Positions 24,410 to 40,118 of a stretch of DNA of 64,000 nucleotides are shown here, one piece after another (the stretch's first letter is position 1; each line of letters opens with the position of its first letter). The notes beneath the pieces are model-generated. The model worked only from the letters and a program-made list of their open reading frames with translations. It made no database searches and had not been told where the DNA came from. The stretch lies in the NCBI RefSeq assembly GCF_036010505.1, contig NZ_CP108569.1, positions 5,447,001 through 5,511,000 of the forward strand, given 5' to 3'. The stretch is from Streptomyces sp. NBC_01197 (GTDB taxonomy: Bacteria; Actinomycetota; Actinomycetes; Streptomycetales; Streptomycetaceae). The position numbers were made by a program, and so were the translations under genes.

Positions 24410-24473
24410 CGGCCCAACCTACGGCGCACTCCGCCCGCATGACCGTCCTCAGCGCGGGCGGCTCCGGTGTGGT

Positions 24474-25346: not shown

Positions 25347-25520
25347 GGCGCCCACGCTACGAGGATCACGGGGGATGCGGCCCGGTCGCCTTCCGGAAGA
25401 GCAAGAGGGTGGGCGCTTTCCGTGCCGGCCGCGCAAGCAGCCGGCGGGCTGGGTGGAAACGGGCTGGGTGGAAGGGTGTCGCAGGGCGGAGCCGCCGGGG
25501 GCCACCGGGCGCTGCTGGGA

Positions 25521-26126
25521 TCAGCGCGACGGGCTGTCCGGGCTCCCGGTGCTGTCGTCGTTGCGCTGGTGGCTGCGGCGGGCGTCGCGGTCGAAGATGC
25601 CCAGCAGCTCGCACGGCCCGGCTTCGGCACCGATGGCGTGCGGGACCATCGTGGGGAACTCGGCGGCCTGGTTGGTCTCCACCCGGAAGCGCCGGTTGCC
25701 CAGGAGCAGGACGGCAGTGCCGGAGAGGACGACGAGCCATTCGCGGCCCGGGTGGGCGCGCATACGTGAGGGGCTGTCGGGCGGTGGGTCCGTCATGCGC
25801 TGGCGTACGACGGTCATGCCCGGGTCCGCCCGGACGGACCAGCGCATCAGCTGGTGGGCGGAGTCGATCACCGGGCTGGAGATAACGTCGTCCGTGGCCG
25901 TCTCGACCAGTTGGTCGAGCGTGGTGTCCAGCGCGCGGGCGAGGGTGACGAGCTGGTCCAGAGCGAGGCGGCGCTGACCGTTCTCGATCCGGCTGAGCGT
26001 GGAGGGGCTGAGCCGGGCGCGGGTGGCCAGCTCGTCCAGAGACCAGCCCTGCGCCACGCGCAGCGCGCGGATCCGTTTGCGTACGAGGCTGTCGAACTCC
26101 CCATCGTCTTGCGTCATGGGCATCAT
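25521..26126 (-). CDS. XRE-family HTH regulator with C-terminal cupin domain
   Basis: About 201 residues. HTH_3 domain at about 13-70: LRVAQGWSLDELATRARLSP, STLSRIENGQRRLALDQLVT. Cupin barrel at about 105-180: PGREWLVVLSGTAVLLLGNR and VETNQAAEFPTMVPHAIGAE. The class senses small ligands through the cupin and represses neighbours. Three ATG codons (26126, 26123, 26117) compete; no ribosome site is evident, so a leaderless transcript is possible. Likely regulator of the methyltransferase downstream. Confidence 0.84.
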   Translation of the reverse strand: MMPMTQDDGEFDSLVRKRIRALRVAQGWSLDELATRARLSPSTLSRIENGQRRLALDQLVTLARALDTTLDQLVETATDDVISSPVIDSAHQLMRWSVRADPGMTVVRQRMTDPPPDSPSRMRAHPGREWLVVLSGTAVLLLGNRRFRVETNQAAEFPTMVPHAIGAEAGPCELLGIFDRDARRSHQRNDDSTGSPDSPSR

Positions 26127-26221
26127 CGTATGCCGTATGCGCAAAGCCCACAGAACTGTCGGCACCACCGCCCCATGACGCCGTCGTCACCCGTCGGGCC
26201 GGGAAGCTCTAGGGTGCTGGA

Positions 26222-26617
26222 ATGCCGTCGTACAGCATTGGCCAGGCAGCGGGACTGCTCGGTGTGAGTCCTGAGACCGTCCGTCGCTGGGCCGACGGGG
26301 GGCAGATCGCCATGGACCGGGACGGCTCGGGGAACCGCGTCATCGACGGGGCGAGCCTCGCGGCCTTCGCCAAGGGGCGGGCCGAGGGCCTGCATCCGGT
26401 GCCGGGGGAGGTCCACACCTCCGTACGGAACTCCTTCGCCGGGATCGTCACCCGGGTCGTCGTGGACGACGTGGTCGCCCAGGTCGAGATCCAGTCCGGG
26501 CCGCACCGGCTGGTCTCCCTGGTGAGCCGGGAGGCCGTCGACGAGCTGGGGATCGTGGTCGGGGTGACCGCAACGGCGCGTGTGAAGTCGACGAACGTTC
26601 ATATCGACAGGCAGTAG
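26222..26617 (+). CDS. HTH-Mop (TOBE) molybdate-responsive regulator candidate, copy 1
   Basis: 131 residues. MerR/excisionase-type HTH at 1-50: YSIGQAAGLLGVSPETVRRW, ADGGQIAMDRDGSGNRVIDG. Molybdate-binding Mop/TOBE domain at about 68-131: SVRNSFAGIVTRVVVDDVVA, HRLVSLVSREAVDELGIVVG, ARVKSTNVHI. The paralogue at 35217-35612 is of equal length and collinear throughout. A -10-like TCTAGGGT ends about seven bases before the ATG, suggesting a leaderless or nearly leaderless transcript. Inferred role: one-component molybdate sensor, with the domain order HTH then one Mop. Confidence 0.85.
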   Translation: MPSYSIGQAAGLLGVSPETVRRWADGGQIAMDRDGSGNRVIDGASLAAFAKGRAEGLHPVPGEVHTSVRNSFAGIVTRVVVDDVVAQVEIQSGPHRLVSLVSREAVDELGIVVGVTATARVKSTNVHIDRQ

Positions 26618-26649
26618 CCGGCTCGGCAGGCGGTAGCCGGTCCCGGCGG

Positions 26650-27606
26650 TCAGCGGGCGAGGCGGGCGAGGCGAGGGAAGAGAGCTTCGGCGCTGCCGCG
26701 ATTGACGGCCTCGGCCTGGCCGGGGGTGAAGTCCCGGTAGGTCTCCAGGAAGTGGTCGTAGTAGTTGCCGGTGTTCTGCGGAGCGAAGGGCCAGTCGCTT
26801 CCGTAGAGGACGTGGCCGGGCTCGGCGAAGGCGAGCAGTGCGGGCAGGGCGCTGGGGCTGGCGGCCAGTGCGGTGTCGAAGTAGAACCGCTTGAGGTCGC
26901 GGATGATGTCCTCGTCGTCGCGGCCGGTGTCGACCACGGTCGAGGTCAGGCCCGAGAACCGGTAGGCCGCGTAGGGCAGGAAGCCGCCGCCGTGCGACAG
27001 GATGACCTTCACCTTCGGGTACCGGCTCGTGACACCGTTCAGCACCATGTTCAGAGCAGTGCGGGTGGTGTCGAAGACGTAGTCGGCCAGTGGGGCCGGG
27101 GTCCCGGGAAGCAGTGCCATCGGGGGCTGTGCCGGGTGGATGAACACGACCGCCTCACGCCGGTCCAGCTCGGCCCAGAGCGGCTCGAAGCCCGGATCGC
27201 CGAGGTAGCGGCCCTGGGTGTTGGACATGAGCACCACACCGTCGGCACCCAGGGTGTCCAGTGCGTAGGCGGTCTCTTCCAGCGCGCCCTCCACGTCCGG
27301 CAGCGGGATGGAGGCGAAGGAGCCGATCCGGTCGGGGTGGTCCTTGACCCTTTCGGCGCCGTACTCGTTGACGGCACGGGCCAGGGCCCGGGCCCCGGCC
27401 ACGTCGTCGTCGAGGCGGACACCGGGCGCGGTGACCGAGAGGACGCCGGTGGCGATGCCCTGCTCGTCCATCATCGTGATCGCGTCGGCCGCGCTCCAGG
27501 CCGGGATGGCCCAGCCGCCGGAGTCCATACCGCGGGATTCCAGGGCCTTCGCCCAGACCGGCGGAACGATGTGCTGGTGGACGTCTATGCGTGCCGGGAA
27601 GCTCAT
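26650..27606 (-). CDS. metal-dependent amidohydrolase, ACMSD-like (amidohydrolase 2)
   Basis: 318 residues. The N-terminal metal motif is IDVHQHIVPP. VVFIHPAQPPMA provides the middle histidine (about residue 165), VILSHGGGFLPY the next, and HVLYGSDWPFAP the catalytic aspartate near residue 280. These are the features of the aminocarboxymuconate-semialdehyde decarboxylase-like family, which decarboxylates or hydrolyses aromatic ring-cleavage products. ATG 27606 has AGAGGAA at good spacing. Divergent from a MarR gene, which probably controls it. Exact substrate unknown. Confidence 0.86.
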   Translation of the reverse strand: MSFPARIDVHQHIVPPVWAKALESRGMDSGGWAIPAWSAADAITMMDEQGIATGVLSVTAPGVRLDDDVAGARALARAVNEYGAERVKDHPDRIGSFASIPLPDVEGALEETAYALDTLGADGVVLMSNTQGRYLGDPGFEPLWAELDRREAVVFIHPAQPPMALLPGTPAPLADYVFDTTRTALNMVLNGVTSRYPKVKVILSHGGGFLPYAAYRFSGLTSTVVDTGRDDEDIIRDLKRFYFDTALAASPSALPALLAFAEPGHVLYGSDWPFAPQNTGNYYDHFLETYRDFTPGQAEAVNRGSAEALFPRLARLAR

Positions 27607-27619
27607 TTCCTCTGCTCTC

Positions 27620-27660
27620 CTAACATTTAGCGTGCTAACGAATTCATTCAGTACGCTAAC
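27620..27660. promoter_or_regulatory. CTAAC repeat operator region, amidohydrolase/MarR
   Basis: CTAAC occurs three times in direct orientation (27620-27624, 27635-27639, 27656-27660) and TTAGCGTGCTAA (27627-27638) is an inverted repeat, all within the 58-base divergent region. Likely MarR binding site overlapping both promoters. Confidence 0.6.
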
Positions 27661-27664
27661 GGTC

Positions 27665-28162
27665 ATGGTTGGAAGAAGCAAGCGCACCCCGGACGAGGGC
27701 GCGGAATCGAGCGCACCCGTCACATCGGACGCAGGCGTGGACGAGCTGGCGCAGGCCGCGGACGCGCTCTTCTACGCGATGCGCCGTGCCCGCTCGGTGG
27801 CCGGCCAAGCGGGCTCCGGTCTGTCCCTCGCCCAACTGGCCCTCCTCGCCCCGCTGGCGACGGCGGGGGAGCTCACGGTCGGGCAACTGGCCGCCGCGGC
27901 CGACGTCAGCGTCCCTACCGCCACCCGGATGCTCCAGCAGCTGGAGGGCAAGGGCAGCGTGACCCGTCGGCGCTCGGCCACCGATGAGCGCCGGGTCCTG
28001 GTCGGCCTCACCGATGACGGCGCCCACCAGCTCGGCGCCGTACGCGCGCGACTGCGTGAACGCCAGACCGCCACCCTGACCCAGTTCCCGCCCGCCGAAC
28101 GCACGCAGCTCGCCCGCCAGTTGCACCGACTGGCCGACGCCATCGCCGCCCTGGACGCCTGA
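27665..28162 (+). CDS. MarR family transcriptional regulator
   Basis: 165 residues. Winged helix with ELTVGQLAAAADVSVPTATR as HTH and RRRSATDERRVLVGLTDDGA as wing. Residues 1-25 are a polar extension. ATG 27665 fits the family N-terminus although the frame is open upstream. Divergent from the amidohydrolase; MarR members in this setting often answer to an aromatic acid. Convergent with pucR downstream. Confidence 0.86.
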   Translation: MVGRSKRTPDEGAESSAPVTSDAGVDELAQAADALFYAMRRARSVAGQAGSGLSLAQLALLAPLATAGELTVGQLAAAADVSVPTATRMLQQLEGKGSVTRRRSATDERRVLVGLTDDGAHQLGAVRARLRERQTATLTQFPPAERTQLARQLHRLADAIAALDA

Positions 28163-28213
28163 GCACCCCGTCGGCAGCTGGTCCGTGGCCGGCGGTCCGT
28201 CAGCGGCGGCCCA

Positions 28214-29764
28214 TCAGCGGCACTTCAGCGCGGCGTGCAGGTCGAGTTTGTCGTCCAGGTTGGAGAGCCCGCGGCCGGTCAGGGTCTCCACGCGCTGGAT
28301 GCGGTAGTGCACCGTGTTGACGTGCAGATGCAGGGCCTCCGCGGTGCGGGTCCAGGAGCAGTTGTGGTCGAGGAAGACCTCCAGTGTTTCCAGGAGCACC
28401 CGGTGCGAACTGCTGGAGCTGTCGGACAGGGGGCCCAGGGTGTTGGCGCTGAAGGCCGTGCGTACGTCGGCGGGGATGCCCGCCAGCAGCGCGTCCAGTG
28501 AGGCGAGGTCGTCGACCGCGGTGACCCGGTCGGCTCCGGCGGCTGTGGTGGCGGCCGCTGCCAGGGCGTAACGCGCCTGCCCGAGAGCGGAGTTGAGGCC
28601 GCTGGGCCCCGGGGTGCTGTCGCTGATACCGGCGTGCAGCGGTGTCTCCGGGACGCAGTCGTGCAGCAGCGACCACGCCTGGTCGACCGCGGGCCGCCCG
28701 GAGTCCTCGTCCCGGCCGGTGTGCAGGACAGCCGCCGCCGTGCCGCCGGGCCGCAGCCCCACCGCGAACGGGCCTGCCGCGGCGTGGCTCAGCGCCTCGG
28801 TGAGCGCGGCCCGCGCGCCCGTCCCCTCGTTCTGCTGCGGCCCGCAGGCCCCCAGCGCGGCGACGAGCACGCGGTAGTGACCGTGCGCCGGGAGGCCGCA
28901 GGCGGTCAGTGCGGAGTCCAGGGCCGTCGCGTCGGCCACCGGGGAGTCGATCAGGGCCAGCAGTCCGTCGGTGGCCCGCCGCTCCGCCGCCCGGCGCCGG
29001 TCGAGGGCGTGGCGGTACTGGGCCATCACGTCGGCGATCTCGTGGAGTACCCGGGGCGGGGCCTCCGCCGGGTCGGGGAGGTAGAGGTACCAGGTGTCGT
29101 AGGGGCCCGAGTCCGCGTCGATGCGCAGGGCGACCCGGGTGGTGTCCCGTGCGGTGTCCCTCAGCAGTGCGGCGGCCCGCTGTACGGGCAGCTCGGGGGC
29201 GGACGGCGTACGGCCGAGGGTGCGGCCCCCGGCCGCCAGCAGGTAGCACGGCAGCCGGCCGAGATGGGCGAAGGCGCGGTCCAGGAGTTCGGCGGGGCCC
29301 GCGCCGTCCGCGAGCAGCCGGGCGAGCTCCGTCCGGACGTTGGCGGGCAGCGCGTAGTGGTGGGCCGGGCGGCGGCTGAGGTCGCCCCACTGGCGCAGAT
29401 AGACCGCCTCGGTGATGGCGCGGAAGCTCGTCTGCGCGGGCACGGAGAGCAGCGGGACACCGTGTTCGCGGCAGGAGTCGACCAGGACGGCGGGGACGGT
29501 GCCGTGGGTCTCCTCGCCCGCCAGGAGCGCCGTCGCCCCGGCCGAGCGGAGCGCCGAGACGAAGTGGTCGGTCTTCGCCGGGCTGTCGCCGGGGCTCCAC
29601 CAGACCAGCCCGCTCAGCACGATCTCGCCCTGCTGGAGGAAGCGCGCCGGGTCCTCCAGATCCGTGGCGGTGACACCGCTGATCTCCCGGGTGAGGAGCG
29701 GGCGGTCCCCCCAGAGCAGGGCCAGATCGAGCGATTCGAGCTGGAGAAGTTGTTCGACGTGCAT
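28214..29764 (-). CDS. PucR family transcriptional regulator
   Basis: 516 residues. N-terminal PucR domain at about 5-125 (VEQLLQLESLDLALLWGDRP, LTREISGVTATDLEDPARFL). A GGDEF-like CdaR middle region follows, then the C-terminal HTH_30 (FLDHNCSWTRTAEALHLHVN, TVHYRIQRVETLTGRGL). PucR proteins activate purine-catabolism genes. Divergence from a xanthine-dehydrogenase-type operon supports that role here. ATG 29764 follows AAGGAGC; the in-frame upstream extension looks non-coding. Confidence 0.9.
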   Translation of the reverse strand: MHVEQLLQLESLDLALLWGDRPLLTREISGVTATDLEDPARFLQQGEIVLSGLVWWSPGDSPAKTDHFVSALRSAGATALLAGEETHGTVPAVLVDSCREHGVPLLSVPAQTSFRAITEAVYLRQWGDLSRRPAHHYALPANVRTELARLLADGAGPAELLDRAFAHLGRLPCYLLAAGGRTLGRTPSAPELPVQRAAALLRDTARDTTRVALRIDADSGPYDTWYLYLPDPAEAPPRVLHEIADVMAQYRHALDRRRAAERRATDGLLALIDSPVADATALDSALTACGLPAHGHYRVLVAALGACGPQQNEGTGARAALTEALSHAAAGPFAVGLRPGGTAAAVLHTGRDEDSGRPAVDQAWSLLHDCVPETPLHAGISDSTPGPSGLNSALGQARYALAAAATTAAGADRVTAVDDLASLDALLAGIPADVRTAFSANTLGPLSDSSSSSHRVLLETLEVFLDHNCSWTRTAEALHLHVNTVHYRIQRVETLTGRGLSNLDDKLDLHAALKCR

Positions 29765-30119
29765 GCTCTGGCTCCTTGTGCGGCGCCCGACCTGAAGATC
29801 CGGCATCTCACATTCACTAGGCGAGTGCGAGTGGAGACATCGTAAATGCCAGGGAGCTGCGCCGGAATGCCTCTTGGTTGATCATCCAACCATCGCGCTG
29901 GGGACTCGGCGGATTTCCGTGGCTGAAACCAGTCGTGCCGGACCGTGGCGCGTTGCTTCACTGACGGAGTACGTGCCGCCGGTGCGGGCGCCGGGCGGAG
30001 CTTCGGCGGCCCGGGAGCGGAAACCCGGGAGCGGAAACCCCGGGCGGCGCGACCGGGCACGAACCGGCAGAACGAAGACCCGGAGAAGGAAACCCGGAGA
30101 AGGAAAAGGGGGGAGCGGT
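29765..30119. promoter_or_regulatory. pucR-xdh divergent regulatory region
   Basis: 355 bases without a gene. An inverted repeat TGGTTG-ATCATC-CAACCA (29875-29892) sits about 230 bases before the xdh start and is a candidate PucR site. Downstream are two tandem duplications described separately. The start of the FAD subunit is preceded by a very G-rich GGGGGGAGCGGT. Confidence 0.5.
30011..30105. repeat. two 14-base tandem duplications in the xdh leader
   Basis: CCGGGAGCGGAAAC is present twice without a gap (30011-30024, 30025-30038), and ACCCGGAGAAGGAA twice (30078-30091, 30092-30105). Both units contain Shine-Dalgarno-like GGAG/AAGGA cores, and the second array ends 14 bases before the ATG of the FAD subunit. 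Confidence 0.85.
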
Positions 30120-30944
30120 ATGGATCTCAATACGGTGGCCGAGGTGTGCGACGCGCGCACCGGACCGGCCTGGCGCCCCGGCGACTACTGGCTGGGCGGC
30201 GGCACCTACCTCTTCTCCGAGCCCCAGCCCCGGCTGCGCCGGCTGATCGATCTCAGCCGGATGGGCTGGGAGCCGCTGAAGGAACTGCCGAACGGCGATC
30301 TGGAGATCGCGGCGACCTGCACGATCGCGCAGCTCTCCCGGTTCGGGAAGGCCTGGCCGGCCCCCGCGGCGCCGCTCGTCGAGCAGTGCTGCCGGGCGTT
30401 CCTCGCCTCATTCAAGATCTGGAACATGGCGACCCTCGGCGGGAACCTCTGCAACGGTCTGCCGGCCGGCCCGATGATCTCGCTCACCGCCGCTCTCGAC
30501 GGCGTCTGCCTGCTCCGGGCGCAGGACGGATCGCTGCGCCGCCTGCCGGTCACGGACTTCATCATCGGTGCCGGGGTCAAGAACCTGGGCCAGGGGGAGT
30601 TGCTCCGCTCGGTCACCCTGCCCGCCCGCGCGCTCGCCTCCCGTACGGCGTTCCGTCAGGCGTCGCTCTACGGGCTCGGCCGCTCCGGCGCGCTGATCGT
30701 CGGTGCGCTCGACCCGGTGGACGGCTCGCTGGCCATCACGGTCACGGCCTCGACCGTACGGCCGTTCCGGTTCTGGTTCCCGCTGCCGCCGACGGCGGCC
30801 CGGCTACGCGCGGAGATCCTGCGGAAAGTCCAGGACGACGACTGGTTCGACGACATCCACGGGCTCCCCGAGTGGCGCCGCCACATGGCGCTGCGTCTCG
30901 CCGAGGAGATCCGTTCCGAACTCACCGAGGGCGGTGTGCGATGA
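30120..30944 (+). CDS. xanthine-dehydrogenase-type FAD-binding subunit
   Basis: 274 residues. PCMH-type FAD domain with DYWLGGGTYLFSEPQPRLRR near the N-terminus and the FAD-contacting segment FKIWNMATLGGNLCNGLPAG near residue 105 (family: IRNxATxGGNLxxxxPxxD). The CO-dehydrogenase flavoprotein C-terminal domain follows. It passes electrons from the iron-sulfur clusters to NAD or another acceptor. ATG 30120 has GGGGGGAG upstream. The stop overlaps the next start (ATGA), so it is coupled to the catalytic subunit. Confidence 0.88.
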   Translation: MDLNTVAEVCDARTGPAWRPGDYWLGGGTYLFSEPQPRLRRLIDLSRMGWEPLKELPNGDLEIAATCTIAQLSRFGKAWPAPAAPLVEQCCRAFLASFKIWNMATLGGNLCNGLPAGPMISLTAALDGVCLLRAQDGSLRRLPVTDFIIGAGVKNLGQGELLRSVTLPARALASRTAFRQASLYGLGRSGALIVGALDPVDGSLAITVTASTVRPFRFWFPLPPTAARLRAEILRKVQDDDWFDDIHGLPEWRRHMALRLAEEIRSELTEGGVR

Positions 30945-33880
30945 CCTACGAGATCGAAGTGAACAAGAAGCGGTTCGATGCGGAGCCCCGTCCCGGACAG
31001 TGTCTGCGGACCTATCTGCGGGACCGCGGCTGGTTCGGTGTGAAGAAGGGGTGCGACGCGGGGGACTGCGGGGCGTGCACGGTGCATGTGGACGGCGAGC
31101 CCGTGCACAGCTGCCTCTACCCCGCCGTACGGGCCGAAGGCCGTTCGGTCACCACGGTGGAGGGGCTGGCCGAGGACGACGAACTCCACCCCGTACAGCA
31201 GAAGTTCCTCGACGCGCAGGGCTTCCAGTGCGGGTTCTGCACCGCCGGGTTCCTGATGACCACCGCGGCGCTCGACGAGGACCAGCTGACCGACCTGCCC
31301 AGGGCGCTCAAGGGAAACCTGTGCCGCTGCACGGGCTACCGGGCGATCGAGGACTCCATCAGGGGGGTCAAGCACGCGGAGGCGCCCTGCGCGGGCAAGG
31401 CCGTCGGCCGCAGCCTGCCCGCCCCGGCGGGACCGCAGGTGGTCACCGGCACCGCGCGCTACACCTTCGACATCGATGTGCCGGGGCTGCTGCACATGAA
31501 GCTGCTGCGCTCCCCGCACGCACACGCCCGCATCGTCTCCATCGACACCTCGGCCGCACTGCGGGTGCCCGGCGTGCACACCGTCCTGACCCACTACGAC
31601 GCGCCGGAGCGGCTGTACTCAACGGCGCGCCACGAACACCCCGAAGAGGACCCGGACGACACCCGGCTGCTTGACGACACCGTGCGCTACGTCGGCCAGC
31701 GCGTCGCCGCGGTCGTCGCCGACAGCGAGGGCGCCGCCGAGGAGGGCTGCCGCCGGATCGAGGTCGTCTACGACGTACTGCCCGCCGTTTTCGACCCGGA
31801 GGAGGCGATGCTGCCGGGTGCCCCCGTCGTCCACGCCAAGGACGCGAAGCAGGCCCGCATCGCCCGCCCGCAGGACAACGTCGTCGGCGAGGCGCACGGG
31901 GAGATCGGCGACGTCGAGGCCGGGTTCGCCGAGGCCGATGTGGTGTACGAGCAGGACTTCCGCACCCAGCGGGTGCAGCACGCCAGCCTGGAGACGCACG
32001 GAGCGGTCGCCTGGTTCGAGGACATGGAGGAGGGCGCGGGCGGCGAGACGGGCTCCGCCGTAGGGGCCGACAGGGTGCGCAGGACCGGCGACACGGAGGG
32101 CGCCGGCCACGCCGGCAGTGCCGAGGGAGAAGCGGGCGCCGGCCGCACCGAGGGGATTCCCGCTCCGCCGGACGGACAGCGCCTGGTCGTGCGGTCGAGC
32201 AGCCAGACCCCGTTCCTGACCCGGCGCGCACTATGTGTCCTGTTCGAACTGCCGCTGGAGAAGGTACGCGTGGTCGCGGGCCGGGTCGGCGGAGGATTCG
32301 GCGGCAAGCAGGAGATGATCGTCGAGGACATCGTCGCGCTCGCCGTGCTGCGGACGGGGCGCCCGGTCAAGCTGGAGTACACCCGGGCCGAGCAATTCTA
32401 CGGCGCCACCACCCGCCATCCGTTCCGTATCCGCATCAAGGCCGGGGCCCGGCGCGACGGCACGCTCACCGCGCTCCAGTTGCGGGTGGTCTCCAACACG
32501 GGGGCCTACGGGAACCACGGCCCGGCCGTGATGTTCCACGCCTGCGGCGAGTCCCTGTCGGTCTACCGCTGCCCCAACAAGAAGGCGGACGGCTACTCGG
32601 TCTACACCCATGCCGTTCCGGCGGGCGCGTTCCGTGGGTACGGGCTCGGGCAGGTCGTCTTCGGCATGGAGTCCGTGCTCGACGAGCTGGCCAGGCGGCT
32701 GGACATGGACCCGATGGAGCTGAAGGCACGCAACATCATCAAGGCGGGCGAGCCCATGATCACCGCCGACGGTGAGGAGGAGGACCTGCACATCGCCAGC
32801 TACGGGCTCGACCAGTGCCTCGGTATCGTCCGCGCGGCGCAGGAGCAGGAGAGGGGGAGGGAGAACGAGCAGAAGCAGGCGAAGGCGGCGGACCCGCAGG
32901 CCCCGCCGCCGGGCGGTTCCGTGCCCGACGGGTGGCTCGTCGGCGAGGGCTCGGCCCTCTCGATGATCGCCACCGGACCGCCCGGCGGCCATATCGCCGA
33001 CGCACGTGTCACGCTCCTCGCCGACGGCACCTTCGATCTCGCCGTCGGTACGGCCGAGTTCGGCAACGGCACCACCACCGTGCACCGGCAGGTCGCCGCG
33101 GGCGAACTCGGCACCACCGTCGACCAGATCACCATTCGCCAGTCGGACACGGATGTGGTGCGCCACGACACAGGCGCTTTCGGCTCGACCGGCACCGTGG
33201 TGGCGGGCAAGGCGACCCTGCGGGCGTCGCAGGCGCTCGCCGCGTCGCTGCTGGCCTTCGCCGCCGCCCATCTCGGGGTGGCCAAGGAGGACTGCCGACT
33301 GGTCGAGGAAGCAGTGGAGTGCGGCGAACGCCGTCTGCTGCTCAAAGAGTTGTACGCCGCCGCGCAGGCCGTGGGCCAGGAACTCGCCGAGGACGGCCAC
33401 TTCGGCGGCACACCCCGCTCGGTGGCCTTCAACGCCCAGTGGTTCAAGATCGCCGTCGACCCTGGCAGCGGAGAGATCCGCATCCTGCGCAGTGTGCACG
33501 CGGCGGACGCGGGCAAGGTGATGAACCCGATGCAGTGCCGTGGCCAGGTCGAAGGCGGAGTGGCCCAGGCGCTGGGTGCCACGCTCTTCGAGAACGTACG
33601 GCTCGGAGAGCGCGGCCAGGTCACCACGCCCGCCTTCCGTATGTACCGACTGCCCGCCTACGCCGATGTGCCCCGTACCGAGGTGCACTTCATGGAGACC
33701 GATGACGCGATCGGTCCGCTGGGCGCGAAGTCCATGAGTGAGAGCCCGTTCAACCCGGTTGCCCCGGCCCTGGCGAACGCGCTGCGGGACGCCACCGGCA
33801 TCCGCTTCACCGAACTTCCGGTCACCCGCGACCGCGTATGGCGTGCCATGGACCGGCGGGCCCGGGGTCTTGATGAGTAG
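30941..33880 (+). CDS. xanthine-dehydrogenase-type fused [2Fe-2S]/molybdopterin subunit
   Basis: 979 residues from ATG 30941; a much longer open frame upstream is a shadow of the FAD gene. Residues 1-150 are the FeS part: Cys38, 43, 46, 58 for the first [2Fe-2S] cluster, and CGFC (about 97-100) with CRC (about 128-130) for the second. The molybdopterin part starts near residue 155 and has VVAGRVGGGFGGKQE and, near the end, SMSESPFNPVAPALANAL, where the active-site glutamate is expected. Two non-conserved inserts are present: an acidic Gly-rich one (about 360-410) and a charged Gln/Pro-rich one (about 630-665). Substrate probably a purine, given PucR. A single polypeptide for small plus large subunit differs from the usual three-subunit form. 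Confidence 0.88.
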   Translation: MTYEIEVNKKRFDAEPRPGQCLRTYLRDRGWFGVKKGCDAGDCGACTVHVDGEPVHSCLYPAVRAEGRSVTTVEGLAEDDELHPVQQKFLDAQGFQCGFCTAGFLMTTAALDEDQLTDLPRALKGNLCRCTGYRAIEDSIRGVKHAEAPCAGKAVGRSLPAPAGPQVVTGTARYTFDIDVPGLLHMKLLRSPHAHARIVSIDTSAALRVPGVHTVLTHYDAPERLYSTARHEHPEEDPDDTRLLDDTVRYVGQRVAAVVADSEGAAEEGCRRIEVVYDVLPAVFDPEEAMLPGAPVVHAKDAKQARIARPQDNVVGEAHGEIGDVEAGFAEADVVYEQDFRTQRVQHASLETHGAVAWFEDMEEGAGGETGSAVGADRVRRTGDTEGAGHAGSAEGEAGAGRTEGIPAPPDGQRLVVRSSSQTPFLTRRALCVLFELPLEKVRVVAGRVGGGFGGKQEMIVEDIVALAVLRTGRPVKLEYTRAEQFYGATTRHPFRIRIKAGARRDGTLTALQLRVVSNTGAYGNHGPAVMFHACGESLSVYRCPNKKADGYSVYTHAVPAGAFRGYGLGQVVFGMESVLDELARRLDMDPMELKARNIIKAGEPMITADGEEEDLHIASYGLDQCLGIVRAAQEQERGRENEQKQAKAADPQAPPPGGSVPDGWLVGEGSALSMIATGPPGGHIADARVTLLADGTFDLAVGTAEFGNGTTTVHRQVAAGELGTTVDQITIRQSDTDVVRHDTGAFGSTGTVVAGKATLRASQALAASLLAFAAAHLGVAKEDCRLVEEAVECGERRLLLKELYAAAQAVGQELAEDGHFGGTPRSVAFNAQWFKIAVDPGSGEIRILRSVHAADAGKVMNPMQCRGQVEGGVAQALGATLFENVRLGERGQVTTPAFRMYRLPAYADVPRTEVHFMETDDAIGPLGAKSMSESPFNPVAPALANALRDATGIRFTELPVTRDRVWRAMDRRARGLDE

Positions 33881-33932
33881 CGCCACCCCATCGGAAATCT
33901 CGCGTCTGCCGCCTGCCGTAGCTCATTTCAGT

Positions 33933-33953
33933 CCTATCAGCGAGCTTGATAGG
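33933..33953. promoter_or_regulatory. inverted repeat before the molybdopterin oxidoreductase gene
   Basis: CCTATCA and TGATAGG are perfect arms around seven bases. A GCATATG palindrome core lies at 33966-33972. Both are in the 173-base gap before the gene at 34054; they may be regulator sites or, for the inverted repeat, a short hairpin ending the xdh transcript. Confidence 0.4.
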
Positions 33954-34053
33954 CCGAATCGTCCCGCATATGTGGTTCAGGCCCCGATGCGGTGGGCATC
34001 ATGGGCTCCAGGCAACGGCGGACGCCGAGTGGCCCGTCTGGAGGGGGAACCCC

Positions 34054-34548
34054 ATGAGTGGAATCAGCGCACCGTCTCGCTCCGTCCGTGCTGCCCCCCT
34101 GGCGCCCAAGAGCTTTGTACTCAAGGGGGAGTTGGCCCGGCCCGCAGCGCTGACGGTGGCGGATCTGCGGACCCGGTGGGGGCAGCGCCGGGCGGATGTC
34201 GTCTTCGACTGTGCCAAGAACGGCCCGCAGCACCACACCTTCGAAGGGCCGCTGCTGCGCGACGTCATCGGCGACGCCCGGCCGGCCTTCGACCCGGCGC
34301 GGCGCAAGGACCGCTCCCGCTTCCTGCTGGCCGTCTCCGGCGGGGACGGGCACCGTACGGTGCTGTCCTGGGCGGAGATCGACGCGGACTTCGCGGACTC
34401 GCCGATCCTGCTGGCCACCGCCATGGACGGGCGCGGCCTGGACATGGCGGGCAGCCAGCTGGTGGTCCCGTCCGACCGCTGCGGCGCGCGCTACATCAGC
34501 TCGATCACGAGTGTCTGGGTCGGCACCTTCGCCTTCGCCGGGCTGTAG
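34054..34548 (+). CDS. molybdopterin-dependent oxidoreductase, sulfite-oxidase fold (short)
   Basis: 164 residues. VLKGELARPAALTVADLRTR opens the fold. DVVFDCAKNGPQHHTFEGPL is the place where sulfite-oxidase-fold proteins carry the molybdenum-ligating cysteine (consensus VxCVxG), and the cysteine is present. RYISSITSVWVGTF ends it. No signal peptide is seen, unlike YedY-type periplasmic enzymes. Its position between xdh and molybdate-uptake genes supports a molybdenum link. Electron partners and substrate unknown. Confidence 0.78.
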   Translation: MSGISAPSRSVRAAPLAPKSFVLKGELARPAALTVADLRTRWGQRRADVVFDCAKNGPQHHTFEGPLLRDVIGDARPAFDPARRKDRSRFLLAVSGGDGHRTVLSWAEIDADFADSPILLATAMDGRGLDMAGSQLVVPSDRCGARYISSITSVWVGTFAFAGL

Positions 34549-34605
34549 CCGCGGCTGTACCCGTACCCCTACCACCAGCCGTGTCCGTGTCCGTAGTGGC
34601 CGCCG

Positions 34606-35025
34606 TCAGGTCGAGGCGAGGGAGACCTCGGTGGACTTGATGAGTGCGACAACGGACGAGCCCGGCGCGAGACCGAGTTCGGCGGCCGACTCCTTCGTGA
34701 TGGCGGCCGTCAGTTCGGCTCCCTCGACCGCGACCTTGACGCTCGCCATGGCCCCGCCCGTCGCGACGTCCGTGACCGTGCCCGGAAGCCGGTTGCGGAT
34801 GCTCAGCCCGGTGACCGTGCCGGTCGCCAGGGAGATCTCGGTGGACTTGATCAGGGCCCGTACGGCGACCCCCTCGGCGATGCCCAGCTCCCGCGCCGCC
34901 TCCAGGGTGATCGCGGCGGTGACCTCCTGGCCGCCGCCGAGGCGCACCTTGACGGTCGCCATGACCGCTCCGCCGGTGATGCCGGTAACGGTGCCGGGGA
35001 GCTGGTTGCGGATGCTCAGAGACAT
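34606..35025 (-). CDS. molbindin-like protein with two Mop (TOBE) domains
   Basis: 139 residues built of two tandem Mop domains of about 68 residues each: SIRNQLPGTVTGITGGAVMA with ITLEAARELGIAEGVAVRAL and IKSTEISLA, then SIRNRLPGTVTDVATGGAMA with ITKESAAELGLAPGSSVVAL and IKSTEVSLA. Di-Mop proteins of this type bind molybdate or tungstate oxyanions in oligomers and serve as storage or buffer. No DNA-binding part. ATG 35025 follows GAGG at seven bases. Divergent from the HTH-Mop gene. Confidence 0.9.
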   Translation of the reverse strand: MSLSIRNQLPGTVTGITGGAVMATVKVRLGGGQEVTAAITLEAARELGIAEGVAVRALIKSTEISLATGTVTGLSIRNRLPGTVTDVATGGAMASVKVAVEGAELTAAITKESAAELGLAPGSSVVALIKSTEVSLAST

Positions 35026-35200
35026 GGAGGAACCTCGCACACAGAGTGGGGTGTCGGATTTGAGATATTACGTCCCTCCCCTCTCGCTCGCGCTCCCATG
35101 TGCACCCTCTGTCGCCGAACGGCGCTTCGGGTCTTCCTCCAAGGGCTGTGGCATCTGCCATATAGCTTCGCCTGATGAATTGCAAATGCGAGCCAACTCG

Positions 35201-35219
35201 GCATATCTTTCCGCATATG
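35201..35219. promoter_or_regulatory. GCATAT repeat at the HTH-Mop start
   Basis: GCATAT at 35201-35206 is repeated at 35213-35218, where it forms the palindrome core GCATATG that includes the ATG of the HTH-Mop gene. The same GCATATG occurs before the molybdopterin oxidoreductase gene (33966-33972). Possible regulator site or -10 element of a leaderless promoter. Confidence 0.4.
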
Positions 35220-35612
35220 CAGTCCTACACGATCGGTCAGGCGGCTCGTCTGCTCGGCGTCAGCCCCGACACCGCTCGTCGTTGGGCGGATGCCGGCAGA
35301 GTCGCGACCCACCGCGATGAAGCCGGCCGCCGACTCATCGACGGACGCGATCTCGCCGCCTTCTCGATCGAGATCGGGCAGATCACCGCAGGCGAGGACG
35401 GTGCGTCCTACACCTCGGCGCGCAACGCCTTCCCGGGCATCGTCACCGCCGTGAAACTCGGCGATGTGGCGGCCCAGGTGGAAATCCAGGCCGGCCCGCA
35501 CCGGCTGGTATCCCTCCTCACCAGGGAGGCCGTCGAGGAACTCGGCCTGGAGGTCGGTATGCAGGCCACCGCCCGCGTCAAGTCGACCAGTGTGCACATC
35601 GACAGGACCTGA
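35217..35612 (+). CDS. HTH-Mop (TOBE) molybdate-responsive regulator candidate, copy 2
   Basis: 131 residues. HTH at 1-50 (YTIGQAARLLGVSPDTARRW, ADAGRVATHRDEAGRRLIDG) and one Mop domain at about 66-131 (SARNAFPGIVTAVKLGDVAA, HRLVSLLTREAVEELGLEVG, ARVKSTSVHI). It stands immediately upstream of modA and divergent from the di-Mop gene, the position of a dedicated modABC regulator. The classical ModE has a winged helix followed by two TOBE domains; here a MerR-type HTH carries one. Probably leaderless from ATG 35217. Confidence 0.87.
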   Translation: MQSYTIGQAARLLGVSPDTARRWADAGRVATHRDEAGRRLIDGRDLAAFSIEIGQITAGEDGASYTSARNAFPGIVTAVKLGDVAAQVEIQAGPHRLVSLLTREAVEELGLEVGMQATARVKSTSVHIDRT

Positions 35613-35784
35613 GCCCCGTGCCGGCTCAGGTGCCCGCTCCCGCAACCAGCTCCCCAACGCAGCGGCGTCGCCCTTCCCCGAAGCCTCGGAGCAACCCGAG
35701 CCGGGAGGCCCCCATTCGGCGTGGCTCATCCCCATTCGCTCGGGCAGCATCCCTGCCGCCCGTCCCTCAAGGAGTCCCACCCTC

Positions 35785-36588
35785 ATGTCCCGCATCTTCA
35801 CCCGACGCCGTACCGCCACCGCGATCGTGACGGCGGCCCTGCTGCTGCCGCTGGCCGCCTGCGGCGGCAAGGACGACAGCAAGAAGGACACCGGCGCCAA
35901 GGCCGCCGCCTCCGGCACGCCGAAGGCCGATCTGACCGTCCTCGCGGCCTCCTCGCTGACCGATGTTTTCGGCACCGCGAAGAAGGTGTACGAGAAGGAG
36001 CACCCCGGCACGACGATCAAGTACTCCTTCGCAGGCTCCCAGGACCTCGCCACCCAGGTGAAGCAGGGCGACCCGGCCGACGCGCTGGTCACCGCGGACA
36101 CCAAGACCATGGACGGTGTGAAGTCCGAGGTCGGCAAGCCGGAGATCATCGCCAAGAACCGGCTCGTCATCGTCACCCGCAAGGGCAACCCGGACAAGGT
36201 CCACAGCCTGAAGGACCTCTCCAACAGCAAGCTGAAGGTCGTCCTCGCCGCGCCCCAGGTGCCCGTCGGCAACTACAGCAAGAAGGTGCTGGACGCGCAG
36301 AAGATCAAGGTCAAGCCGGTCTCGCAGGAGGTGAACGTCCGCGCAGTCCTGTCCAAGGTCGAGCTGGGCGAGGCCGACGCGGGCATCGTCTACAGGACGG
36401 ACGCCGCCACGGCGCCCGGCAAGGTCGACACGGTCACCATCCCAGACGCGCAGAACGCCGTCGCCTCCTACCCGGCGGCGACCGTCAAGGGATCGAAGAA
36501 CTCGGCCGCGGCCGCCGCGTTCGTCGCCTGGCTCGACACCCCCGAGGCGCAGAAGATCCTCCAGGGCGCGGGCTTCCAGAAGCCGTAG
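35785..36588 (+). CDS. modA: molybdate-binding lipoprotein ModA
   Basis: 267 residues. Lipoprotein signal: basic start, AIVTAALLLPLAACGG with the lipobox cysteine near residue 26. The periplasmic-binding fold begins LTVLAASSLTDVFGTAKKVY; ASSLTDV, YSFAGSQDLATQ, and VPVGNYSKKVL are the oxyanion-contacting segments of ModA. It captures molybdate outside the membrane for the transporter encoded next. ATG 35785 follows AAGGAG. A strong hairpin separates it from modBC, which may let modA be expressed more highly. Confidence 0.92.
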   Translation: MSRIFTRRRTATAIVTAALLLPLAACGGKDDSKKDTGAKAAASGTPKADLTVLAASSLTDVFGTAKKVYEKEHPGTTIKYSFAGSQDLATQVKQGDPADALVTADTKTMDGVKSEVGKPEIIAKNRLVIVTRKGNPDKVHSLKDLSNSKLKVVLAAPQVPVGNYSKKVLDAQKIKVKPVSQEVNVRAVLSKVELGEADAGIVYRTDAATAPGKVDTVTIPDAQNAVASYPAATVKGSKNSAAAAAFVAWLDTPEAQKILQGAGFQKP

Positions 36589-36627
36589 TGGAGCAGTCGC
36601 AGTAGAGCCGGATCACGCCCAACTCGG

Positions 36628-36674
36628 CCGTACGGGGCTGTCCTTGCAGCACGACACTGGACAGCCCCGTACGG
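36628..36674 (+). terminator. 16-pair hairpin between modA and modBC
   Basis: CCGTACGGGGCTGTCC (36628-36643) and its exact reverse complement (36659-36674) enclose a 15-base loop, 40 bases after the modA stop and 86 before the modBC start. Likely a partial terminator or mRNA-stabilising structure. Confidence 0.7.
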
Positions 36675-36759
36675 GTTCGCCTTGTACGGAGCGCGGCCAC
36701 GGCTCCCGCACGCCGACTGTCGGCATCCCGCACCTGGCATCCCGATCACAGGAACCCCG

Positions 36760-38778
36760 ATGAGAAGCATCCGCACCCGCGCCCGTACACCGCGCACCGG
36801 CTCTCCCATAGCCCTCGCGGTGCCCGCGCTGATCGGGGTCGGGTTCCTGCTGATGCCGCTGATCGGCATTCTGGCGCGCACCTCATGGGGCGAGCTCGGT
36901 ACCAATCTGACCAGCCCGGACACGACTCAGGCGCTGCGGCTGTCGCTGGAGGTCTCCTTCTGCGCCCTGGGCGTCTCGCTGCTCCTGGGGGTGCCGCTGG
37001 CCTGGGTGCTCGCGCGGGTCGACTTTCCCGGCAAGGCGTTCGTACGCTCTCTCGTCCTGCTGCCGATGGTGCTGCCGCCCACCGTCGGGGGAGTGGCGCT
37101 GCTGCTCGGGTTCGGCCGCCGGGGAGTGCTCGGACCCTGGCTGGAGAACACCTTCGGCATCACCCTGCCCTTCCACACGTCGGGGGCGGTGGTCGCGGCG
37201 ACCTTCGTGGCGATGCCGTTCCTGGTCATCAGCCTGGAGGGCACGCTCGCCGGGCTGCGGCCCCGTTACGAGGAGACGGCCGCCTCGCTCGGCGCCTCGC
37301 CGGTCCGGGTGTTCTTCACCGTCACCCTGCCCATGGTCGCGCCGGGGCTGGCCGCGGGCGCCGCGCTGACCTGGGCGCGGGCGCTGGGTGAGTTCGGGGC
37401 GACCATCACCTTCGCCGGGAACCTCCCGGGCTCCACACAGACGCTGCCGTTGCAGGTGTATCTCCTGCTGCAGGACTCACCCACGGCCGCAACTTCCGTA
37501 TCTCTGCTGCTTCTTGTCATCGCGATGGCGGTCCTGGTGTCCCTGCGCGGGCGCTGGACCGGCGGTACGTCCACGCGCACCGGGAAAGCCGCACGCCCGG
37601 CCGACGACATCGGGGACGAGACCGGCCGGCCGCTCCCCGGCTTCGGACCGGCCGACCCCGCGACCGGTGGCGCGCCGGGCGGCACGGACGGGGCCGGCCG
37701 CGAAGCCAAGAGCCTGGGGCCCAACTCCCCGCCCCCGCAGGAGCGCTGGCCGCTGCACGCGGTGGTCACCGGCTTCAACGAGCTGACGCTCGACGCCGAG
37801 CCGGGCACCACCATCGCGGTCGTCGGCCCCAACGGCGCGGGCAAGACCACCCTGCTGCGCGCCCTCCTCGGCCTGACCCCGCGCGCCCGCGCGGAGCTGC
37901 GGCTCGGCGACATCGACGTCAGTCCGCTGCCGCCGCACCGCCGGGGGGTGGCCTGGGTTCCGCAGGACGGCGCGCTCTTCCCGCATCTGAGTGCGCTCAC
38001 CAACACCGCGTACGGCCTGCGGTCGCGCCGGGTGCCGCGTGCCGAGGCGCGCCGGGAGGCCGGCCAGTGGCTGGACCGGCTCGGCGTCGGCCATCTCGCC
38101 GCCCGCAAGCCCTCCCAGCTCTCCGGTGGCCAGGCCCAGCGCGTCGCGCTCGCCAGGGCGCTCGCCGCCCGCCCCCGGCTGCTGCTGCTCGACGAGCCCC
38201 TCGCCGCGCTCGACCAGACCACCCGGGCCCATGTGCGGCACACCCTGCGTACGCATCTCAGCGGCTTCGCCGGTGTCTGCCTGATCGTCACCCACGACCC
38301 GGTGGAGGCGGTCTCGCTGGCCGACCGGGTCCTCGTACTGGACGACGGCCGCACGCTCCAGGACGCCCCGCCCACCGAAGTGACCCTGCACCCGCGGTCG
38401 CCCTGGGTGGCCAGGATGCTCGGCCGCAACGCCTGGACCGGAACCGCCTCCGCCGACGGTCTGACCCTCACCGGCGGCGGACGGCTCGTCATCGCCGACG
38501 GGCTCGACGAGGGCGTCAGGGCGCTGGCGATCATCGCGCCTGAAGCCGTCTCCGTCCACCGGGACAGGCCGTCGGGCAGCCCGCGCAACGTCTGGCCCGG
38601 CACCGTACGGGAGATCACGTCGGCCGGCAGCAGGCTCCGCGTCCTCATCACCTCGGCCGAGGCGCCCGACCTGGTGGCGGAGATCACTCCGCAGGCCGCG
38701 CTCGAACTCGGCCTCGCGGACGGCGTACCGGTGTGGACCAGCGTCAAGGCCACCGAGATCACTCTGGTCGAGGTCTAG
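36760..38778 (+). CDS. modBC: fused molybdate ABC transporter permease-ATPase (ModB-ModC)
   Basis: 672 residues in one chain. Residues about 1-265 are the ModB permease with five or six helices and the EAA loop ETAASLGASPVRVFFTVTLP. Residues about 266-335 are a Gly/Pro-rich linker. The ATPase follows: Walker A GPNGAGKTT near 357, Q-loop WVPQDGALFPHL, signature LSGGQAQRVALARAL, Walker B LLLLDEPLAALD, switch His in VTHDP. The C-terminus is a TOBE domain (GTVREITSAGSRLRVLITSA, then WTSVKATEITLVEV). It pumps molybdate delivered by ModA. The usual form is two genes. ATG 36760 follows AGGAA. Confidence 0.92.
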   Translation: MRSIRTRARTPRTGSPIALAVPALIGVGFLLMPLIGILARTSWGELGTNLTSPDTTQALRLSLEVSFCALGVSLLLGVPLAWVLARVDFPGKAFVRSLVLLPMVLPPTVGGVALLLGFGRRGVLGPWLENTFGITLPFHTSGAVVAATFVAMPFLVISLEGTLAGLRPRYEETAASLGASPVRVFFTVTLPMVAPGLAAGAALTWARALGEFGATITFAGNLPGSTQTLPLQVYLLLQDSPTAATSVSLLLLVIAMAVLVSLRGRWTGGTSTRTGKAARPADDIGDETGRPLPGFGPADPATGGAPGGTDGAGREAKSLGPNSPPPQERWPLHAVVTGFNELTLDAEPGTTIAVVGPNGAGKTTLLRALLGLTPRARAELRLGDIDVSPLPPHRRGVAWVPQDGALFPHLSALTNTAYGLRSRRVPRAEARREAGQWLDRLGVGHLAARKPSQLSGGQAQRVALARALAARPRLLLLDEPLAALDQTTRAHVRHTLRTHLSGFAGVCLIVTHDPVEAVSLADRVLVLDDGRTLQDAPPTEVTLHPRSPWVARMLGRNAWTGTASADGLTLTGGGRLVIADGLDEGVRALAIIAPEAVSVHRDRPSGSPRNVWPGTVREITSAGSRLRVLITSAEAPDLVAEITPQAALELGLADGVPVWTSVKATEITLVEV

Positions 38779-38849
38779 GCAGTCTCAGGGATCAGGGGCC
38801 CGCCATGTGCGGGAGCGGGGGCCGAGGGCCCGGCCGGTTAGCATCCCCT

Positions 38850-40118
38850 GTGACCCCGATACCCGCATCCAAGGAGACGCCGATACGTCGGCGCATACTC
38901 GCCGACCTCACCCCGCTGCGCACATCCCCCGACTTCCGGCGGCTCTGGTTCGGCAACACCGTCTCCTGGGTCGGGCAGGGCATGACCGCCCTGGCGATCT
39001 CGCTCCAGGTCTACGACCTCACCCGCTCCAGCTTCTCCGTCGGCCTCGTCGGCCTCTTCTCACTGGTGCCGCTGGTCGCGTTCGGCCTCTACGGCGGGGC
39101 CGTCGCCGACACCCTCGACCGTCGCAAACTCGGGCTCTCCAGCGCCCTCGGGTCCGCGGTCCTCTCGGTCGGGCTCTCGTCGGCCGCGTTCGCCGGCTTC
39201 CACCATGTCTGGTTCCTGTACGGCATCGTGGCCCTCCAGTCCGTCTGCGCCGCGCTCAACGCCCCGGCCAGATCCGCGATGATCCCCCGGCTGCTGCCCG
39301 CCGACCAACTGCCCGCGGCCAACGCCCTGTCCTCTATGACCAGCACCTTCGGAACGCTGATCGGGCCGATGCTCGGCGGCCTCATCGTCGGCTTCTGGGG
39401 CTACCAGGCCGCGTATCTGATCGACGCCGTCTCCTTCGTCGCCGCCCTGTACGCGATGTGGCGGCTGCCCTCGATGCTCCCCGACCGGGCCACCGGATCG
39501 AAGAGCCGCGCCTCGGTCCTGGACGGACTCCGCTTCCTGGCCACCCGCCCCAACCTCCGGATGACGTTCTTCTCCGACTTCTGCGCCATGATCCTGGCCC
39601 AGCCGCGTGCGCTGTTCCCCGCGGTGGCCGTCCTCTGGTACGGGGGTGACGCCCGCACCACGGGGCTGCTGGTCGCGGCGCCCGCGGTGGGCGCGCTGCT
39701 CGGCGGGGTCTTCTCCGGCTGGCTGGGCGGCATCCACCGGCACGGCCTCGCGATCGTCCTCGCGGTCGCCGGGTGGGGGCTCGCCATCGCGGTGTTCGGC
39801 CTGACCAGGAACCTCTGGCTCGGCCTGTTCTTCCTCGCGCTCGCCGGTGCGGCGGACACCGTGTCCATGGTTTTCCGCAACACGATGATGCAGGTCGCGG
39901 CGCCGGACGAGATGCGCGGCAGGCTCCAGGGGGTCTTCATCGTGGTCGTGGCGGGCGGCCCGCGCCTGGGCGACTTCCTCGCGGGCTCGGCGGGCGACCT
40001 GGCCACCCCGGCCGCAGCCGTGGTCGGCGGCGGTCTCGCCTGTGTCGCCGCGGTCACCCTGCTCGGCCTGACCCGGCGCGGCTTCCTCCGCTACGACGCA
40101 CGGTTGCCGGTGCCGTAA
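38850..40118 (+). CDS. MFS transporter (enterobactin-exporter-like, MFS_3)
   Basis: 422 residues, about 12 helices. DFRRLWFGNTVSWVGQGMTA opens it, and GLYGGAVADTLDRRKLGLSS is the loop 2-3 motif. RSAMIPRLLPADQLPAANAL and IGPMLGGLIVGFWGYQAAYL are typical of the EntS-like branch. It exports a small molecule, identity unknown. GTG 38850 has a TTAGCAT -10 element eight to ten bases upstream and no ribosome site, indicating a leaderless mRNA. It is separated from modBC by 71 bases. Confidence 0.86.
   Translation: MTPIPASKETPIRRRILADLTPLRTSPDFRRLWFGNTVSWVGQGMTALAISLQVYDLTRSSFSVGLVGLFSLVPLVAFGLYGGAVADTLDRRKLGLSSALGSAVLSVGLSSAAFAGFHHVWFLYGIVALQSVCAALNAPARSAMIPRLLPADQLPAANALSSMTSTFGTLIGPMLGGLIVGFWGYQAAYLIDAVSFVAALYAMWRLPSMLPDRATGSKSRASVLDGLRFLATRPNLRMTFFSDFCAMILAQPRALFPAVAVLWYGGDARTTGLLVAAPAVGALLGGVFSGWLGGIHRHGLAIVLAVAGWGLAIAVFGLTRNLWLGLFFLALAGAADTVSMVFRNTMMQVAAPDEMRGRLQGVFIVVVAGGPRLGDFLAGSAGDLATPAAAVVGGGLACVAAVTLLGLTRRGFLRYDARLPVP

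Follow-up and report, generated by a model that had tools for sequence, protein, structure and literature searches.

The molybdenum locus analyzed here lies in a window of 64,000 nucleotides from the genome of Streptomyces sp. NBC_01197 (contig NZ_CP108569.1, positions 5,447,001 to 5,511,000), in which it occupies coordinates 26222-38778, from the start of a gene that we call HTH-Mop B to the end of a modB-modC fusion. Our main subject is the paralogous gene HTH-Mop A (35217-35612, + strand), which encodes a protein of 131 amino acids (aa) composed of a MerR/HTH_17-type helix-turn-helix (HTH) and one Mop/TOBE domain, as assessed by Pfam, the NCBIfam Mop family, AlphaFold2, and Foldseek. It is a predicted repressor of its own operon, which further contains modA, encoding the molybdate-binding protein (35785-36588, + strand, SBP_bac_11 match), and the modB-modC fusion, whose product ends with a C-terminal TOBE domain (36760-38778, + strand, profile matches). 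The start of HTH-Mop A is the ATG at 35217, in an open reading frame (ORF) that as listed opens earlier, at 35175; the start codon of the fusion was chosen by reading, in an ORF open from 36682.

Three palindromic octamers GCANNTGC were found by sequence scans 5' of HTH-Mop A, with starts at 35151, 35182, and 35213, i.e. 31 bp apart, spanning 35151-35220. We predict that these strand-neutral elements form an operator, consisting of box 1 (GCATCTGC, 35151-35158), box 2 (GCAAATGC, 35182-35189), which sits on the −35 hexamer TTGCAA (35180-35185), and box 3 (GCATATGC, 35213-35220), which covers the ATG of HTH-Mop A. The predicted promoter (35180-35209, + strand), defined from the sequence and from the class-1 consensus described below, combines this −35 hexamer with an 18-bp spacer and the −10 element TATCTT (35204-35209). 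Because 7 nt separate the −10 element from the start codon, the transcript is probably leaderless. In the 7.7-Mb genome, the exact pair GCANNTGC-N23-GCANNTGC occurs nowhere else (two overlapping pairs here; the control pattern gave 1), and the exact triple with 31/31 spacing is unique. When up to three mismatches were allowed, the 31/31 triple matched four other places, all with three mismatches and one of them overlapping the operator (control, 9).

The same arrangement recurs in relatives. The named-locus set consisted of the best 80 of 576 loci found (79 from Streptomyces and one from Actinacidiphila), and 942 kb were scanned for boxes. Exact box pairs are concentrated at spacings of 31 bp (20 pairs), 32 bp (5), 62 bp (17), 63 bp (28), and 64 bp (6), and every remaining spacing from 12 to 80 bp gave 0-2 pairs. 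Triples with at most two mismatches at spacings of 31/32 bp were found in 65 places, versus at most one at any of ten control spacings. Such a triple precedes HTH-Mop or modA in 57 of the 60 modA-bearing loci, and in 59 when three mismatches are allowed. Among the 20 loci with no recognized modA, four have a triple with at most two mismatches; in two of these it precedes HTH-Mop, and in the other two it lies close to the far end of the stretch.

Two types of ModA could be distinguished, the type 2 query being 45% identical to the ModA of the window, which is of type 1. In type 1 loci the triple precedes HTH-mop (29/31, at most two mismatches). In type 2 loci it is found before modA (27/29, with one more before HTH-mop), mostly ending 52-182 bp upstream of this gene, or 441 and 471 bp upstream in two loci, and the middle box in this second arrangement is usually GCTCATGC. 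Since both ModA types come with a triple, the operator has been kept while the transporter genes differ. Some Streptomyces (L151 and G053) have two triple boxes each, one before HTH-mop and the other before modA. In five further Streptomyces loci that lack boxes before HTH-mop (L021, L028, L037, L039, and L075), visual inspection revealed a conserved motif around ATATCGCGTTATAC ∼50-75 bp upstream of this gene.

The boxes also have a regular position relative to predicted promoters. The consensus of 35 class-1 loci shows TTGCA at −35 on box 2, a TA-C-T −10 element, and box 3 on the start codon, and in 27 of these 35 loci a TTG is followed, after an 18-bp spacer, by TANNNT. In class 2, box 3 sits right before a TATNAT element. 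Both placements fit repression.

We then considered genomes in which the gene and its putative target are separated. Seven Streptomyces genomes (G001, G013, G014, G046, G054, G186, and G251) have a full-length HTH-mop that is not linked to modB, and in all seven a triple with at most two mismatches lies before modA. Decayed pieces of HTH-mop are present between the triple and modA in four of them, identified by tblastn in G046 and G186 and by eye in G013 and G251; a loose-threshold search of the same interval in G001, G014, and G054 returned no HTH-Mop remnants. Each genome with a decayed local copy has a full-length copy elsewhere. These loci have kept their operator although the local regulator gene was lost or moved, a pattern that fits control in trans by the copy that remains. 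In G046 and G054 the only HTH-Mop found is of a third type, C, unlinked from modA, and modA keeps an exact triple box. Four other genomes have HTH-mop 3.9-7.1 kb from modB, three of them with a triple before modA at one mismatch and one (G059) at three.

Genome-wide scans of the 61 genomes that form our Streptomyces sample gave a similar picture. The 31/31 triple with at most one mismatch occurs at 12 places in 12 genomes (control, 2), 11 of which are at the start of HTH-mop and the twelfth (G038) upstream of a second modB. The clade-2 form of the triple occurs at 16 places in 15 genomes (control, 4), 13 of which adjoin modA/modB or HTH-mop. One of the three remaining places, in G055 (L239 5815-5885; G055:C3:6857314), is a solitary triple ∼50 bp before a gene for a sulfite-oxidase-fold molybdopterin protein (PF00174), which suggests that a molybdoenzyme gene joined the regulon in that species. 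As for a wider regulon in the genome of the window, a pair scan with two mismatches returned 543 matches versus 780 for the control, so such degenerate matches carry no information and give no ground for claiming a wider regulon there.

HTH-Mop itself accompanies molybdate-uptake genes. It was found in 61/61 genomes of the Streptomyces sample, which includes the 7.7-Mb genome of the window, as was ModB above the TIGR02141 family cut-off, to which all ModB rows in the linkage counts were restricted. The two genes are linked, i.e. at most 10 kb apart, in 56/61 genomes, and 52 of 81 HTH-Mop copies lie directly upstream of modB (at most 2.5 kb, same strand), two partial, Mop-only rows of the original 83 having been left out. 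In a sample of 198 genomes from the phylum, 79 have some HTH-Mop match and 49 a full-length one, as judged by reading the match rows. Once the TOBE-only and partial rows were left out, together with those of three genomes already present in the Streptomyces sample (G000, G013, and G056), 46 further genomes were kept (five from the same genus), 37 of which show linkage to modB and 34 a position directly upstream. ModB above the cut-off is present in 44/49 genomes with full-length HTH-Mop versus 68/149 without (Fisher p ∼2e-8, kinship ignored). For instance, a homologue lies immediately 5' of modA-modB in Nonomuraea and in Nocardia. The homologues are thus not scattered independently of molybdenum genes, a possibility that the preliminary description of the locus had named as one that would speak against a molybdate sensor.

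Some members of the family have other surroundings. On a plasmid of Candidatus Mycobacterium methanotrophicum (L234) the homologue lies within a moaA/moaE/glp/moaC cofactor-biosynthesis cluster, and a type-C HTH-Mop (L079) lies beside LysR, LysE, and CorA-type genes. A copy on a plasmid of Streptomyces sp. NBC_01340 (L237) was matched in two pieces only and looks degenerate. In three genomes of family f15 (G124, G242, and G253), short Mop-only ORFs of ∼90-183 codons adjoin modB on the opposite strand, and the members of this family that were sampled yielded no full-length HTH-Mop.

Outside Streptomyces, the presence of boxes covaries with the recognition helix of HTH-Mop. At a strict pair threshold (at most one mismatch, spacing of 30-32 or 62-64 bp, upstream), a box pair precedes HTH-Mop in 11 of 18 loci with a T[VAI]RRW recognition helix versus 0 of 23 with a TLRRW helix (Fisher p ∼1e-5, kinship ignored; L208 was left out because it is from the same genome as L061). 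Among 64 palindromic octamer families scanned in the T[VAI]RRW group, GCA/TGC alone stands out at 30-32 bp (10/18, versus 0-1 at control spacings). The same scan yielded no candidate operator for the TLRRW group, none of the 64 families being enriched at 30-32 bp. At 20 mod loci from genomes with no HTH-Mop match we found no triple and one weak pair (the L210 stretch is incomplete). Four non-Streptomyces stretches in which HTH-Mop is missing or unlinked (G097, G155, G133, and G208) have no triple either, and modA was not recognized in the first three.

Both HTH-Mop A and HTH-Mop B, which are 63% identical, display HTH_17, MerR (PF00376), and one TOBE (PF03459) above Pfam cut-offs (copy A was searched minus its first residue). 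The Mop family TIGR00638 matches A with 56.1 bits, above its cut-off of 55, and B with 48.2 bits, below it. The AlphaFold2 monomer model of HTH-Mop A has a mean predicted local distance difference test (pLDDT) of 89, with both domains confident; their mutual placement is not confident (predicted TM-score of 0.48, residues 61-67 with pLDDT <50). The top Foldseek match of this model is an activated ModE chain (TM-score 0.41), Mop proteins are also matched, and the MerR-type HTHs of NmlR and BldC follow at lower rank (E of 0.003-0.007 and weaker). In an alignment of 20 diverse HTH-Mop members, S67, R69, N70, K122, and T124, which we take to be the Mop ligand positions, are invariant. HTH-Mop therefore carries both the TOBE/Mop profile and the conserved motif of the Mop/molbindin family, and both copies have a MerR-type HTH and lack the LysR-like winged helix and the tandem Mop domains of ModE. 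ModE itself had been described as absent, which was borne out genome-wide: TIGR00637 gave 15 matches up to E 10, none above the family cut-off. All five TOBE matches in the genome (E up to 0.001) are inside the window.

Profile searches (Pfam/NCBIfam) confirmed the whole gene inventory of the preliminary description, i.e. two 131-residue HTH-Mop paralogues, a di-Mop protein, ModA, a ModB-ModC fusion, and xdh-type and sulfite-oxidase-fold genes. Divergent from HTH-Mop A is the gene for the di-Mop (ModG-like) protein with two TOBE stretches (34606-35025, − strand; alternative GTG start at 35040). It is preceded in the window by a gene for a sulfite-oxidase-fold molybdopterin protein (34054-34548, + strand), with an uncertain start in a frame open from 33946 and a PF00174 score barely above the cut-off (24.7 bits versus 24). 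Further upstream are two xdh-type genes identified by profile matches, one for a fusion of [2Fe-2S] and molybdopterin subunits (30941-33880, + strand) and the other for a FAD subunit (30120-30944, + strand), and a PucR-family regulator gene (28214-29806, − strand). HTH-Mop B (26222-26617, + strand) is followed by genes for an amidohydrolase (26650-27723, − strand) and a MarR protein (about 27665-28162, + strand), both recognized by profile matches.

In a tree of 52 sequences, which used 13 of 39 A rows, B copies form their own clade (support 99/96) beside A and type C. The preliminary description had placed this second copy beside an amidohydrolase/MarR pair, with no obvious target. No amidohydrolase or MarR like those of the window turned up at the other eight B loci, and synteny between G023 and the window is otherwise kept, so that the pair was probably inserted in the strain of the window. 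A target context is likely to be the one shared with relatives, since PucR, xdh, or sulfite-oxidase-fold genes are near six of nine B copies: PucR adjoins HTH-Mop B in four genomes (G023, G019, G004, and G038), and in the window the amidohydrolase/MarR pair separates the two; the xdh FAD gene is also seen at all five of these loci except G004; and in a sixth genome (G028) HTH-Mop B adjoins a sulfite-oxidase-fold gene. These neighbors and the separate clade make it plausible that HTH-Mop B has a role in tuning neighboring molybdoenzyme genes. That it is a second molybdate-dependent regulator dedicated to PucR/xdh or sulfite-oxidase-fold genes is a tentative proposal, to which we give slightly less than even odds. 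Three of the nine copies have no recognized molybdoenzyme or PucR neighbor, and our search for an operator of HTH-Mop B found no box pair, triple, or shared palindrome upstream of the nine copies, two of which (L068 and L082) have a single exact octamer.

The preliminary description had considered the HTH-Mop protein next to modA a plausible molybdate sensor, which the linkage and the persistence of the operator at modA support at the level of sequence. The reading that we favor, with a probability of roughly 0.78, is that HTH-Mop A is a one-component molybdate (or tungstate) sensor that represses the uptake operon through the three boxes. The single Mop domain would bind the oxyanion, molybdate or tungstate, and the MerR/BldC-type HTH would bind the three GCANNTGC octamers, which at 31-32 bp are three helical turns apart and on the same face of the DNA. 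As the boxes cover the −35 element and the start point of the HTH-mop-modA-modBC operon, the bound protein would block transcription. When molybdate is scarce, the protein would be released and uptake would be induced.

Several points weigh against this reading. Binding of the boxes by HTH-Mop itself, and repression, are predicted, and that the molybdate-bound form would be the repressing one is proposed from ModE, by analogy. Locus counts in the named set are not independent because nearly all come from relatives within one genus. One modA-bearing locus (L091) has no triple even at three mismatches, triples are partial or weak at the linked loci of G055 and G059, and the strict 31/31 form is limited to 12 of 61 genomes. 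Two of the three clade-2 triples away from mod genes have no recognized molybdenum gene adjacent: one in G055 (L238 5906-5976; G055:C3:3529405) is an exact triple where an alpha/beta-hydrolase ORF without any obvious link to molybdenum begins, and one in G058 overlaps a predicted ORF. In the four genomes with decayed HTH-mop pieces, the operator may partly be a recent leftover of the linked arrangement. Outside Streptomyces, 7 of 18 T[VAI]RRW loci have no operator, and none of the five named loci (Nonomuraea, Nocardia, Mycobacterium, Rhodococcus, and Pseudonocardia) has a pair at the strict threshold, the Nocardia locus having a 31-bp pair with two mismatches. These five come from six of eight plasmid-collection matches, the sixth being a broken Streptomyces copy with no box pair upstream. 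Judged from these sequences, the operator is patchy outside Streptomyces, and many lineages have either a more relaxed version of it or another one.

How the protein would occupy three boxes is a separate question. According to a gut-microbiome survey (PMC11980592), Tub, which has a single Mop domain, forms a hexamer (a trimer of dimers) that carries eight oxyanion sites. A Tub-like hexamer of HTH-Mop would have six HTHs forming three pairs, as many as there are boxes on the same face of the helix, a match that is suggestive rather than proof. Perhaps, then, a Mop-type hexamer supplies three HTH pairs to the three boxes; being drawn by analogy, this step too weakens the case. An extended version, which we consider somewhat less probable than its opposite, is that molybdate bound between single Mop domains closes a D3 hexamer whose three HTH pairs contact three equally spaced palindromes (∼31 bp, ∼93 bp per full circle), with the DNA bent or wrapped round the ring, and that this is the standard uptake switch of many ModE-less Actinobacteria.

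Just as possible, and likewise short of an even chance, is that independent dimers of HTH-Mop, and not a single hexamer, bind the boxes cooperatively, or that the protein activates rather than represses. Dimers or head-to-tail arrays are the working form of MerR-type HTHs, BldC among them, and the distance between the triple and modA varies in the second arrangement, as given above. Equal spacing of the three boxes by three turns in most loci argues against independent dimers. Against activation, the boxes cover the −35 element and the start point in class 1 and box 3 precedes the −10 element in class 2, which fits repression. In the MerR family, activation distorts a promoter with a 19-bp spacer, and the predicted class-1 promoters have an 18-bp spacer in 27 of 35 loci.

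It is unlikely that another factor, for instance of the BldC or MerR type, has the triple box as its operator, and that HTH-Mop merely accompanies mod genes in a storage or sensing role. BldC, a Streptomyces protein with a MerR-type HTH, is among the matched HTH structures, and the operator persists at modA in some genomes whose local HTH-Mop has decayed. However, every one of these genomes keeps a full-length HTH-Mop elsewhere, the class-1 operator lies on the start of HTH-mop itself, the operator accompanies one type of recognition helix alone among the 41 non-Streptomyces loci, and no triple is present at the 20 mod loci of genomes with no HTH-Mop match. Control by a Moco-type riboswitch, an RNA reported to precede molybdate transporter genes in other bacteria, Actinobacteria included (PMC2408646), is highly improbable, since an Rfam covariance search of window positions 24000-40000 gave no match at E up to 1 and boxes 1 and 2 are upstream of the predicted transcription start.

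Control of molybdate uptake is textbook knowledge only for ModE, which most molybdenum-using bacteria reportedly lack according to published surveys. HTH-Mop is likely a stand-in for ModE, absent from the genome of the window. It shares with the Escherichia coli-type ModE a Mop/TOBE molybdate sensor fused to a DNA-binding domain and the linkage to modABC, but its HTH is of the MerR/HTH_17 type where ModE has a LysR-like winged helix, it has a single Mop domain where ModE has two, and its predicted operator has three boxes. HTH-Mop thus lacks two defining features of ModE, and its linkage to mod genes and operator-like site would make it work like ModE without being a member of that family. The Mop/Tub and ModG molbindins have the same Mop fold and SARN...VKxT motif, but lack the DNA-binding domain that HTH-Mop adds. 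The HTH fold is shared with the BldC/MerR family, from which HTH-Mop differs by its Mop sensor and by the deduced palindromic octamers at 31 bp, whereas the BldC operator consists of direct repeats. TunR of Desulfovibrio, said to be an oxyanion regulator that is independent of ModE and carries a Mop-type sensor, resembles HTH-Mop by description. To our knowledge, the triple-box layout has no counterpart elsewhere.

Related architectures are in print. The gut-microbiome survey, in the passages covered, tabulates proteins with an HTH and one TOBE ("ModE-like") and proteins with HTH_17, a PBP-like domain, and TOBE ("TaoR-like"), and these passages give no operator for either (PMC11980592). HTH-Mop shares with the former the combination of an HTH with a single TOBE, its own HTH being of the HTH_17/MerR kind, and with the latter HTH_17 and TOBE, without the PBP-like domain. 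In a 2018 comparative-genomics paper on molybdenum, the whole words "ModE" and "Mop" are absent from the main text (PMC6147048), and public annotation names the homologues "TOBE domain-containing protein" or "helix-turn-helix transcriptional regulator." The sensor had been called undescribed. This holds for the regulator and its triple-box operator, of which we found no description in the open-licence literature (subscription papers were largely outside the search), and does not extend to the HTH-TOBE architecture as such.

Taken together, these findings provide a candidate regulator, an exact predicted operator, and a target for the whole genus, which makes the control of molybdenum uptake in Streptomyces directly testable. 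The HTH-Mop protein and its operator may also offer a compact molybdate-responsive switch. The three-box operator suggests an unusual matching of protein symmetry by DNA, and, if the D3 hexamer proposal were true, HTH-Mop would be a new kind of metal-oxyanion repressor, with the symmetry of its oligomer written into its operator.

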